A stretch of DNA of 42,708 nucleotides from an uncultured Selenomonadaceae bacterium (GTDB lineage: Bacteria > Bacillota > Negativicutes > Selenomonadales > Selenomonadaceae), in assembly GCA_905234175.1 (NCBI GenBank), contig CAJOGX010000015.1, positions 1 through 42,708 on the forward strand, in the 5' to 3' direction. Each line of letters begins with the position of its first letter. The first letter of the stretch is position 1. Shown here piece by piece: positions 4,225-7,849 of the stretch. The position numbers and the translations under genes were made by a program. The notes below the pieces were generated by a model. It searched no databases, was not told where the DNA came from, and worked only from the letters and a program-made list of their open reading frames with translations.

Positions 4225-5325
4225 TTGAACTTGACACGAAAAATCTGCGCGCTGACGCTGGCGCTCGTAACTTCGCTGGCAACACTGCACGCCTCAGCGA
4301 AAACTTTTGAACCGCTGCCAATGCACAGCCTGCCCGTCGAAGTCGAAGATACCGGCGGCACGCTCATTTTTTCAGACAGCCCCGAATACGTCAAACAAAA
4401 CGGCATTCTCTACACCGACGTGGTTGAGGGCGACGCGCGTGTCCTTTTCTACCACCTCAACGATTCCGGATTCCCGAAAAAAATCGCCGTCGTCGTCGAG
4501 AATGTTTCCGGCAAATCCAACACCGTCGAAATTACGCGCGGCGGCTTTTCCGAGCCCAGCGAAAATTATCTGCAGGTCGGCAAGGACACCCAGCTCAGCT
4601 ACATGAAAAATAATTTCCACGGCAAAATCAGACTCGCCGCCGGTGAACGCAAAATTCTCCACGAAAAAATGAACAGCACTACCGTCGACGCGGGCAAGCT
4701 GGTTTACGGCGTCTACGATTTCCACGCGAAAGCTCCCGTGCGAGTTTATGTGCTGATGTGTTCGCCCTACGCTAACCCGACGAAATTTCTGGACTACGCT
4801 CAAATTCTCCCGCGCGACGAATATCAGCTGCGTGGCACTTTCAAAAACATGAACCGCGTCTTCAGGCTCCGCCGCGCCTACAACCCCGCGACTGACGGTA
4901 TCAGCTACGTTTTGCTGGCCGATGACGCGACGGATTTGTACAAGCGCGGAATTGACGCAACCGACGGCGCCGAAGTTGTCAACGCAGGAAATTACGGCGT
5001 CAAATACATTTTGGACTTCAAAACCAGGGCAATGACGCGCTTCGTCCTCAGCCCGCTGGGCGGCACCTACGCCGGCGCTATGCGTTTCGTTTATGGTAAA
5101 AATTCCGGCGTTATCCCTACGCCGCGCGGCAGACTTTTTTTCGGCGATAAAACCCCGCCGGAGCCCGAAGAAGTTCAGAAAGCCCGCGAAGAAGGTTTCG
5201 CACTTTGGACGGAAGGCATGGAATTTTGCGAGCTGGGAAGTTACAGCGGCAGAGTCAGCTTTGATTTTTCGCCGCCTGGCGCCTCGAATCTGCCCGTCCA
5301 CATTATTTTAATGCCCACCGAATAG
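4225..5325 (+). CDS. Secreted protein of unknown function
   Basis: I do not recognise this 366-residue protein. It begins with a clear signal peptide (basic LTRKIC, hydrophobic ALTLALVTSLATL, then ASA before KTFEP), so it is exported. The mature part is beta-rich, with segments such as RVLFYHLNDSG, IAVVVENVSG and VEITRG at about 70-110 that suggest an immunoglobulin-like or jelly-roll start, and a later stretch (about 215-300) rich in short strands. No catalytic motif is evident. The start is TTG, 4225 or 4231, with AAAGG at 4210-4214. It begins six bases after the deacetylase gene and ends ten before the SpeD-like gene, so it belongs to the same transcript and may act in the same envelope process. 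Confidence 0.75.
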   Translation: MNLTRKICALTLALVTSLATLHASAKTFEPLPMHSLPVEVEDTGGTLIFSDSPEYVKQNGILYTDVVEGDARVLFYHLNDSGFPKKIAVVVENVSGKSNTVEITRGGFSEPSENYLQVGKDTQLSYMKNNFHGKIRLAAGERKILHEKMNSTTVDAGKLVYGVYDFHAKAPVRVYVLMCSPYANPTKFLDYAQILPRDEYQLRGTFKNMNRVFRLRRAYNPATDGISYVLLADDATDLYKRGIDATDGAEVVNAGNYGVKYILDFKTRAMTRFVLSPLGGTYAGAMRFVYGKNSGVIPTPRGRLFFGDKTPPEPEEVQKAREEGFALWTEGMEFCELGSYSGRVSFDFSPPGASNLPVHIILMPTE

Positions 5326-5335
5326 GAGAATCGCA

Positions 5336-5779
5336 ATGAAAATTTTGGCGCGTCAACTGACGCTGGATTTGTACAACTGCAACGAAAAAAAGTTAGCCGA
5401 CCTCGACGTCATTAAAAATCTTCTGAGCGCCGTCTTCAGTCATGAACCGAATTTTTCCGCCGAAAATATTGACCACGACCACAGCACGGTTATCGGCGCC
5501 TTCCGCGAAGGGCACATCGCGCTGCACGTCTATTCCGCCCTGCGCTACGTTGCCGCAGATATTTTCACCTGCACCGAAAATTCCAATCCCGAAGCGCTCG
5601 AAAAAGTTCTGCGCAAATTTTTTCAGCCCGACAAAATCAAATCCACTTTCCTCAAGCGCGGCGATTTCGGGCAGGACCACGAAGTCACTCCAAAAATTAA
5701 AACCCGCGTCGCTCCACTCCGCCGCGTGCGAAACGTCGGCGCAAGGGTTGTCAAAACGCTGATTCGGAGGGGCAACTAA
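5336..5779 (+). CDS. S-adenosylmethionine decarboxylase (SpeD/SpeH) homologue lacking the pyruvoyl serine
   Basis: The first 112 residues align with the small prokaryotic AdoMet decarboxylases, which cut themselves between Glu and Ser and turn the Ser into the pyruvoyl cofactor. LDLYNC corresponds to the family's VDLYGC start, and FREGHIALH (56-64) to the family's AESHISIH. The following VAADIFTC (72-79) matches the AAVDIFTC block. The processing serine is replaced by Gly59 (codon GGG, 5510-5512), while the catalytic-loop His64 and Cys79 are kept. A glycine cannot form a pyruvoyl group, so the canonical decarboxylase should be impossible. A basic tail (about 113-147) is extra. RBS GGAG precedes ATG 5336. 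The stop TAA directly abuts the ATG of the CobT-like gene, so the two are translationally linked. Confidence 0.8.
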   Translation: MKILARQLTLDLYNCNEKKLADLDVIKNLLSAVFSHEPNFSAENIDHDHSTVIGAFREGHIALHVYSALRYVAADIFTCTENSNPEALEKVLRKFFQPDKIKSTFLKRGDFGQDHEVTPKIKTRVAPLRRVRNVGARVVKTLIRRGN

Positions 5780-7849
5780 ATGACTTTTACCGATATGACC
5801 GACCTTTACCGCAGCCTCGGCAAAACCAAAAAGTGCACTTTTATTTTCTGCGCGGACCACGGCGTTGCTAAAATGAACGTCAGCGCCTACCCGCAGTCAA
5901 CCACCGCCGACATGGTTAAAAATTACCTCGTCGACAAGGGCGCCGCCGCTAACGCCTTCGCAAATTTTGCGCGCTCGGAACTCGTCGTGGTGGACGTCGG
6001 CGTCAACGCGGATATTTCCAGCCTGCCAAACCTCGTCAACAGGAAAATCGCGTTCGGCACCGGCAATATCGCTGAGGAGCCCGCTATGACTCGCGCGCAG
6101 GCTCGCCGCTCAATCAAAGTCGGCAAAGATCTCGTTGAAAAGGCCGTAAAAGCCGGCTGCAACTGTTTTCTTATCGGCGAAATGGGAATTGCGAACACGA
6201 CCGTTGCCTCCGCGATAACCGCTACGATTCTCGAAACCAGTCCCAAAAAAGTTACCGGCCGCGGCTCGAATATTTCCGACGCGCGTTTTAAAAATAAGCT
6301 GAAGGTTGTCCGCAAAATTTTGCAGGTTCACGACCCCGACCCAATGGACGCGATTGACGTGCTGGCGGCAGTTGGCGGCTTTGAGTTCGGCGCGATGGCT
6401 GGCGTGATTCTCGCCGCCGCTAAGCATAACTGCGTTGTCATTCTGGACGGCTTCAACACCGCCGTTGCCGCGCTGCTGGCTGATTTGATTGACGAAACCG
6501 CCTGCGATTGCCTTATCGCCTCGCACCTCGGCCGCGAAGTCGGGCACATTGAAATTATCGATTACCTGGGACTGACGCCAATGTTTACGCTCGACCTGGC
6601 GCTCGGTGAGGCGATTGGCTCTTCGATTGCCGCGCGAATTTTAGACCGGCTAGTTTACGTTTACGTTTGCGAAGACGGCGACGATTTCAACGGCGATTTG
6701 AGCGACTTCAAGGAGGAGGACGACGAAGAGTCGCTCGTTTCGGATTTGCTGGAAAAAATTGGGCTGAGCGAAGTGACCAACATTTCCAGCATTGACGACC
6801 TCGAAGATTATTTTGAACAGAATTTCGACGGCGAGGTTCAGGTTCAGGAAGTTGATTTGGATTTCCAGCTGAGCGACGACCACCGCCTTGAGCCCTTCGA
6901 CCCGCCTTTCAGCGCCAACGATTTCAATATCCCGCGTTCCTATCCTATGATGGTGCGCGAAATGGGCGGGCAGCACGAGGAAAAAATTGCCGCCACCGAC
7001 AAAACTTTCAGCTTTTACCTGCAGACGATGCCGACGCTCCATTTCAAGGCGATGGATCTTTGTCGCGAATACCTTGACAGCCTGACGAAGCCGAAAAAAA
7101 GTCTCGGACTGCTTGAGGATATTGCCGCGCAGGTTGCCGGTATCACAAATTCCGAAAAGCCGTCCAACCGCCTGCGCCACGCCGCGCTCGCCTTCACCAA
7201 CGCCGAAAATTCCCCGAAAAATTCTTCCCGACGAACCGTTCGCCGCAACGTTGCCATGGATTTCAGTATGACGGCGCGCACTTTCGCGAAAAAAATTTTC
7301 ATGGGTATCGTCGATCCTAAACAAAATCCGACCGTCGCTTTTAATTTCGGGCGGACGCTGGCGGAGGAAATTTCCTTCAGTATGCCGGTTATCGCGCTCA
7401 CCGAACTCAGCGACTGGCACCTTGATAAGATTGACGAACGATTTGCCCGCGCGCTCCTTACGCAAAGTGGCGGCCTGAAAGTCGAGCCGGAAAATTTCCT
7501 GAGCTACGTGCCGAAAAAGTTCCAGTGCCTTACCGGCGCGCTGATTGGCGCCATGATTGCCGCCGCGCATAACTCCACGCTGATTGTCGTCGACTGCGGC
7601 GCCGTTGAAATTATCGCGCGCTACCTTGAGACGATTTGCCCGCAGATTCGCCCGTTTATCCTGCACGCCGTCGACCTGATTAAATACGACTTCGAGCCTG
7701 GCCAGCGCATCGGCTTCGACGGGGAAATTGCCTGCATTGGCGCGGAAATTGTCGAGGCGGCGCTCACTGCGCTCAACGAGATGAAAACTTTCAGCGACAC
7801 CGGCGTTACCGTCGCCGTTGATTCTGGCGCGACTGGAGGAAAATCATGA
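5780..7849 (+). CDS. Double CobT-like protein (ArsAB-type lower-ligand phosphoribosyltransferase fusion)
   Basis: The 689-residue chain holds two regions of the CobT family, which join nicotinate mononucleotide to the lower-ligand base of cobamides. Residues about 20-290 carry an intact core: ADHGVA (25-30), VSAYPQ, VDVGV, GEMGIANTT (133-141), GRGSNISD, VGGFEF, ILDGFN, ASHLGREVGH and LGEAIG (275-280), with the catalytic-type Glu. This copy lacks the usual first 45 or so residues. After an acidic linker (about 298-365), residues 415-455 supply exactly that missing type of segment (LDSLTKPKKSLGLLEDIAAQ). A second core follows (about 465-680) that has lost ADHGVA and GEMG but keeps a recognisable tail (NEMKTFSDTGV). 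Sporomusa and Veillonella use paired CobT homologues, ArsA and ArsB, to activate phenol or p-cresol; a fused version is my best reading. Confidence 0.8.
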   Translation: MTFTDMTDLYRSLGKTKKCTFIFCADHGVAKMNVSAYPQSTTADMVKNYLVDKGAAANAFANFARSELVVVDVGVNADISSLPNLVNRKIAFGTGNIAEEPAMTRAQARRSIKVGKDLVEKAVKAGCNCFLIGEMGIANTTVASAITATILETSPKKVTGRGSNISDARFKNKLKVVRKILQVHDPDPMDAIDVLAAVGGFEFGAMAGVILAAAKHNCVVILDGFNTAVAALLADLIDETACDCLIASHLGREVGHIEIIDYLGLTPMFTLDLALGEAIGSSIAARILDRLVYVYVCEDGDDFNGDLSDFKEEDDEESLVSDLLEKIGLSEVTNISSIDDLEDYFEQNFDGEVQVQEVDLDFQLSDDHRLEPFDPPFSANDFNIPRSYPMMVREMGGQHEEKIAATDKTFSFYLQTMPTLHFKAMDLCREYLDSLTKPKKSLGLLEDIAAQVAGITNSEKPSNRLRHAALAFTNAENSPKNSSRRTVRRNVAMDFSMTARTFAKKIFMGIVDPKQNPTVAFNFGRTLAEEISFSMPVIALTELSDWHLDKIDERFARALLTQSGGLKVEPENFLSYVPKKFQCLTGALIGAMIAAAHNSTLIVVDCGAVEIIARYLETICPQIRPFILHAVDLIKYDFEPGQRIGFDGEIACIGAEIVEAALTALNEMKTFSDTGVTVAVDSGATGGKS

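Follow-up and report, generated by a model that had tools for sequence, protein, structure and literature searches.

ArsAB activates phenol and p-cresol, and in a structural study from 2012 the ArsA half alone was reportedly found to be catalytic. The small domain of CobT, as the structure paper of 1999 is said to have described it, consists of the N- and C-terminal sections of the chain and caps the neighbouring chain. In Salmonella CobT both chains contribute to the base pocket, Glu317 acts as the general base and Glu174 contacts the ribose, according to the available text of PMC9561151. In the accessible portion of a genome survey (PMC6461909), arsAB is defined by two adjacent cobT genes and is reported from 27 species, nearly all of them Negativicutes. 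This adjacency rule would not be satisfied by a fused gene, and a fused arsAB could be missed by it. We found no description of a fused ArsAB in the literature searched, which excluded most subscription papers, two on ArsAB among them. Phenolyl cobamides make up 20-34% of the cobamides of the bovine rumen, for which the part of a review available to us (PMC8123684) names only two proven producers; the 15 rows of its Table 1 that were examined include no member of the Selenomonadaceae.

The window analysed here (42,708 nucleotides of a contig from an uncultured Selenomonadaceae bacterium) carries a single open reading frame that encodes two CobT-type halves, hereafter copy 1 and copy 2, in one chain (Table 1), as the first-pass annotation had read it. 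The frame opens with an ATG at 5780 that has GGAGG just 5' of it, and the gene before it closes in frame with a TAA whose last base is 5779; these two features leave no room for a hidden upstream N-terminal segment of copy 1. PF02277 matches the chain in two stretches, the second at nucleotides 7037-7204, and since the match of copy 1 begins only at profile position 48, the first 47 profile positions are absent from this copy. The N-terminal segment (N segment) is thus missing from copy 1 and present in copy 2, which agrees with the earlier reading. The CobT model TIGR03160 scores 339 bits over two stretches of the whole chain (curated cut-off 319.3), and the best solved relative of the chain, found through copy 1, is ArsA. 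The AdoMet decarboxylase-like gene upstream directly abuts the fused gene, a polyamine-type gene beside a cobamide enzyme, and a look-alike by sequence is in place in L062, L071 and L073. Positions 4225-5325 hold a 366-aa open reading frame with no Pfam or NCBIfam match, the look-alike of which adjoins a deacetylase-type gene in L071-L073. Profile matches revealed no cob neighbour of the fused gene in the stretch inspected.

Table 1. Features of the fused gene and its upstream neighbour, with positions in the window.
Feature	Position	Strand	Basis
Whole fused ArsA-ArsB-type gene, 689 aa	5780..7849	+	Single ORF; PF02277 and TIGR03160 matches
Copy 1 (residues 16-290), ArsA-type catalytic core lacking the N-terminal segment and the C-terminal tail	5825..6649	+	PF02277 48-313 of 329; ArsA 4hdk_A, E 4.5e-79
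Glu134, equivalent of Salmonella CobT Glu174 (GEMG)	6179..6181	+	Alignment offset; conservation
Glu277, equivalent of Salmonella CobT Glu317, general base (LGEAIG)	6608..6610	+	Alignment offset; conservation
Acidic linker, residues 293-405, bounds chosen by the analyst	6656..6994	+	Composition; dN/dS region
N segment of copy 2 (residues 406-456), containing LTKPKKSLG	6995..7147	+	PF02277 4-57; ArsB residues 12-55
Shortened core of copy 2 (residues 457-640), devoid of the catalytic motifs	7148..7699	+	hhalign; dN/dS 0.137
C segment of copy 2 (residues 641-682), containing NEMKTF	7700..7825	+	Match to C-terminal part of ArsB
Upstream neighbour, AdoMet decarboxylase-like, outside the enzyme	5336..5779	+	PF02675, 62.6 bits

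Alignment of copy 1 to Salmonella CobT ends at an offset of 40, which pairs Glu134 with Glu174 and Glu277 with Glu317. Both positions are Glu in all 119 aligned copy-1 rows (52 from the source genus, 54 from the rest of the family and 13 from other families), and the spacing between them is 143 residues in 107 of these rows, i.e., the length of the core is nearly fixed. Separate ArsB proteins keep the Glu174 equivalent in 17/21 cases and the Glu317 equivalent in 18/21. Within the fused chain, sequence comparison finds the conserved catalytic pair and the motifs kept in copy 1 only, and this residue conservation supports copy 1 as the sole catalytic core. Copy 1 is not a complete single CobT domain with core, N segment and C tail, as it lacks both ends: besides the N segment, the NEMATF-type C-terminal tail is gone, a loss that the first-pass annotation had overlooked. 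A full N segment before ADHG was found in none of the 52 examined source-genus rows, and a profile of this segment matched the residues preceding ADHG at E <= 0.01 in a single row out of 54 (52 source genus, two g18), namely L175 (E 9e-4), in which the nearest Met leaves about 22 residues; all 69 rows that keep the segment matched. At E <= 1, 49 of the 54 rows matched, probably by way of the strand just before ADHG, which the profile includes. The Tyr, Met and Met at Salmonella positions 80, 88 and 175 were considered as pocket residues marking phenolic specificity; they are conserved in the ArsA lineage, yet the alignment shows them to be common in the other CobTs of the class as well, and this mark was discarded.

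The linker had already been described as acidic, and its composition bears this out: among the 132 residues after Glu277, 27% are Asp or Glu as against 7% Lys or Arg. Linkers throughout the source genus are acidic (up to 44% Asp+Glu, in L177) and poorly conserved in sequence. Copy 2 retains both pieces that are missing from copy 1, the N segment and the C-terminal tail (NEMKTF). The stretch LDSLTKPKKSLG does lie at residues 432-443, and the reported loss of ADHG and GEMG from copy 2 was confirmed; its core is moreover shortened and devoid of the NTT loop. Taken alone, copy 2 has ArsB (4hdk_B) as its best solved relative (E 2.6e-8), matched at the N segment and the C-terminal third. A profile of 51 copy-2 sequences from the source genus matched a profile of 40 complete CobT-type proteins, a mixture of CobT, ArsA and ArsB, with E 7e-24; against one of nine ArsB-type proteins E was 2e-26 (hhalign). 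Copy 2 is thus CobT-related by profile; a second half outside the CobT fold is what the first-pass annotation had named as speaking against its reading. A regular expression for the N segment and tail had no hit in 1057 non-CobT ORFs of the relatives' loci nor in 20,000 shuffles of residues 293-689, and the N segment and tail of copy 2 are therefore not a product of chance. A full loss of catalytic positions from copy 2 was also considered and had to be softened, as Asp647 aligns to Glu317 and Glu542 to Glu174 in the 689-aa chain. The copy-2 core further contains a derived block, AAHNS...VVD...EIIARY...CP...PFILH (7559-7666), that is conserved in the source genus; its AHN[SNG] core occurs in 46/52 sequences of the genus, 19/48 of the rest of the family and 0/13 fusions of other families. 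This block may constitute a new structural or binding feature.

The ancestry of the two halves was followed in a quickly built tree of 92 selected rows, with 17 chosen fused proteins and without the Sporomusa ovata sequences, anchored by the separate pair L123 (which matches solved ArsA at 2e-163 and solved ArsB at 5e-136). All 17 copy-1 rows fell into one part (support 97) together with 22 presumed separate ArsA genes, and the part holding CobT and ArsA (support 99) excluded all 17 copy-2 rows, which were placed with separate ArsB or next to it. The tree supports an ArsA-like copy 1 and an ArsB-like copy 2, i.e., a fused ArsA-ArsB ancestry, and the earlier proposal of an ArsAB-type fusion is thereby supported for each half. 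Fused genes are scattered among separate ones in the tree, and family f10 has both forms (fused in L115, L116 and L122, tandem in L127), which suggests several fusions, fissions being an alternative. In some separate pairs, e.g., L087, neither gene appears to lack any part. Some members of the source family also carry, as their second gene of this kind, a single CobT-like gene of a distant lineage with an open frame of 339-360 aa (L065-L068, from G054, G034, G057 and G024).

The gene is widespread among relatives. Matches were obtained in 58 of 61 genomes of the source family and in 58 of 60 of the source genus, its own genome included each time. The 58 family loci comprise 50 with both halves, six reduced ones and two cut by contig ends; L061-L064, L069, L070, L105, L124 and L128, which repeat other loci, were left out of the locus count. 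Among the genus matches, 52 of 58 were examined (G163, G174, G176, G179, G197 and G199 being left out), and 51 of the 52 have both halves. Of 120 sampled genomes of the class, 99 lie beyond the source family; at least 13 of these have the fused frame, spread over at least nine families, a count that leaves out five matching f4 genomes. Relatives L071-L073 are named Selenomonadaceae from deer and water-buffalo rumen, through which the family of the source organism was assigned; they were left out of the genus rows and may duplicate three counted genomes. For L037, L043 and L051 the regular expressions used to find the halves gave no second half, and for L028 they put it in the wrong place; BLASTP shows this half in all four. 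A scan of viral contigs for further relatives found none.

Across these relatives, copy 2 is shortened to different degrees. The distance from LTKP to MKTF, about 310 in complete CobTs, is 302 to 188 in copy 2 of the 13 fusions from other families and 177 to 242 in those genes with two halves, from elsewhere in the source family, that were measured; the 689-aa chain has 233 and G058 has 203. Three genomes of g6 have 77, two of g18 have 72, and G040 of the source genus has 49. In these last six, which are the reduced genes of the family, copy 2 consists of the N and C segments only, and all six keep the N segment and an MKTF or MKSF tail. The N segment of copy 1 is present in g6 and absent in g18 and G040 (three of the six reduced forms). 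The smallest proteins measure 385, 393 and 394 aa by the nearest start (farther starts would lengthen those of L052 and L056), in the order core, N segment, C segment. The reduced gene is the only PF02277 gene found in G040, G018, G045 and G005; one more was found in G034 and G054. In a tree of core 1 (91 of the 124 extracted rows, after dropping 31 source-genus and two contig-cut rows), the 20 two-half genus rows form one group (97/78), g18 and G040 are its neighbours (91/93, drawn open, on long branches), and g6 is separate from them (100/100). At least two losses of the copy-2 core would follow if the 91/93 branch is correct.

Selection was estimated on 49 of the 52 examined genus rows (L004, L005 and L052 left out; 265 of 1176 pairs). 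Pooled dN/dS is lowest in the copy-2 N segment (0.098), followed by core 1 (0.116), the linker (0.135), the copy-2 core, the C segment (0.149) and residues 1-16 (0.155). Because all six regions lie between 0.098 and 0.155, the fused gene is by this measure a living gene, and in the source genus the copy-2 core still seems to do something. Simple decay of copy 2 in the source genus was considered and ruled out, the copy-2 core being under purifying selection at 0.137 versus 0.116 for copy 1.

In a dimer with shared sites, one site would be made of core A and small domain B, and the other of core B and small domain A. Once the second site is out of use, the chemistry of core B and small domain A would be free to decay, and these are the very pieces missing from the 689-aa chain. 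Copy 1 would then be the catalytic core and copy 2 would complete its pocket with the N and C segments, giving one site per chain. The pieces surviving in the reduced forms are likewise those that decay would be expected to leave if a single site consisted of the copy 1 core and the copy 2 small domain. On a more tentative reading, the route would lead from two near-complete subunits through fusion to the loss of one small domain and of the other core, in either order, with a protein of about 385-394 aa (core, N segment, C segment) as its endpoint; this would be a non-circular rearrangement, by which the split small domain becomes continuous. We consider it highly probable that the gene encodes a fused, partly trimmed ArsAB-type base-activating phosphoribosyltransferase of a cobamide-making member of the Selenomonadaceae, with one working site per chain. 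The first-pass annotation had proposed one site built from both halves: conservation supports a single catalytic core and the surviving pieces strongly suggest the shared site, but the contact of the copy 2 segments with the copy 1 site is one that we infer. The structure prediction that had been suggested for the whole chain yielded no usable model: AlphaFold pLDDT was 47.9 for the whole chain and 45.5 for copy 2 alone, because the input alignments held only four rows (the 689-aa chain and three kin loci). A Foldseek search with these low-pLDDT models ranked ArsAB chains first, weakly, with a best E of 0.024 for copy 2.

The enzyme would produce an alpha-ribotide as precursor of a cobamide lower ligand, perhaps a phenolic one; phenolic cobamides, which had been predicted at first reading, are a plausible expectation. 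CbiD was found in 14/14 checked genomes and CobS in 13/14 (the exception, G045, is 85% complete). In the source genome both lie on contigs other than that of the fused gene, and two cobalamin riboswitches are present. No other PF02277 gene was found in the source genome (81.7% complete, 48 contigs), and a separate complete cobT or arsAB, which the first-pass annotation had weighed against itself, was thus not seen there. The same architecture could also belong to an enzyme working mainly on benzimidazoles or purines, so that ordinary cobamides and nothing phenolic would be made, a reading that comes close to an even chance. The NCBIfam name of the protein is CobT, with a TIGR03160 score above the cut-off; the Tyr/Met/Met pocket residues are not diagnostic, ArsAB has been solved with 5,6-dimethylbenzimidazole (DMB) bound (PDB titles), and activation of DMB by ArsAB is stated in the accessible part of a review. 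The ancestry from ArsA and ArsB speaks against it, as does the failure to find a known benzimidazole synthesis, given that BluB (TIGR02476) and TIGR04386, the two models used, had no match over cut-off in any of the 14 genomes; salvage or other routes are possible.

Copy 2 might instead be a regulatory or protein-binding add-on unrelated to the site of copy 1, for which one could invoke the AAHNS...EIIARY block of the copy-2 core, conserved in the genus and part of the family and without a named function. We regard this as unlikely, as the smallest proteins keep the CobT N segment and C tail and not this block. Even less probable is a tethered pseudo-homodimer with working sites in both halves. 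Both halves are indeed CobT-related by profile, Asp647 is invariant in the source genus at the Glu317 position, Glu542 aligns to Glu174, and purifying selection acts on the copy-2 core; but copy 2 is without ADHG, GEMG and the NTT loop, and kin do not conserve its Glu174 position; copy 1 no longer has the small domain on which a second site would depend, and there are relatives that retain the gene although its copy-2 core is gone. Finally, a misassembly or a decaying pseudogene, which the incompleteness of the source genome and its 48 contigs might bring to mind, can be dismissed in view of the matches in 58 of 60 genus genomes, the kin at 90% and 74% identity in independent named assemblies and the low dN/dS of all six regions.

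With the one-site fusion as the preferred reading, these genes would provide a graded series for a shared-site dimer on its way to one chain, and they bear on the question of who makes phenolyl cobamides. That living Selenomonadaceae show both the passage of a two-chain shared-site enzyme to one chain with its domains in a new order and an overlooked source of phenolyl cobamides in rumen and gut is a tentative proposal, which we rate slightly below an even prospect.

Among described systems, ArsAB of S. ovata (PDB 4hdk and others) is similar in having two unequal CobT homologues, copy 1 being nearest to ArsA and copy 2 to ArsB, and the tree anchored by L123 finds one ArsA-lineage and one ArsB-lineage homologue in the fused gene. 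Yet ArsAB of S. ovata consists of two chains from tandem genes, whereas the 689-aa chain is fused, has lost the N segment of copy 1 and has a shortened copy 2 core. One 689-aa open reading frame stands in place of the two separate adjacent genes by which arsAB is delimited in the accessible portion of PMC6461909, and we therefore class the gene as a fused derivative and not as a member of ArsAB in that sense. CobT of Salmonella enterica has the same catalytic core with the Glu174 and Glu317 equivalents and a base pocket drawn from both chains (PMC9561151, available text), but each of its chains has a core, an N segment and a C tail of its own, and two identical chains make up the dimer. The BluB/CobT2 fusion of Propionibacterium freudenreichii, as presented in the accessible part of PMC4657239, also joins a CobT domain to another lower-ligand enzyme, the partner there being BluB and not a second CobT. 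Domain atrophy, in the portion of PMC4432964 available, resembles our case in the loss of large core pieces, after which the surface of a partner often stabilises what is left; it comprises separate cases, whereas the Selenomonadaceae offer a graded series in a fused pair with putatively shared sites.
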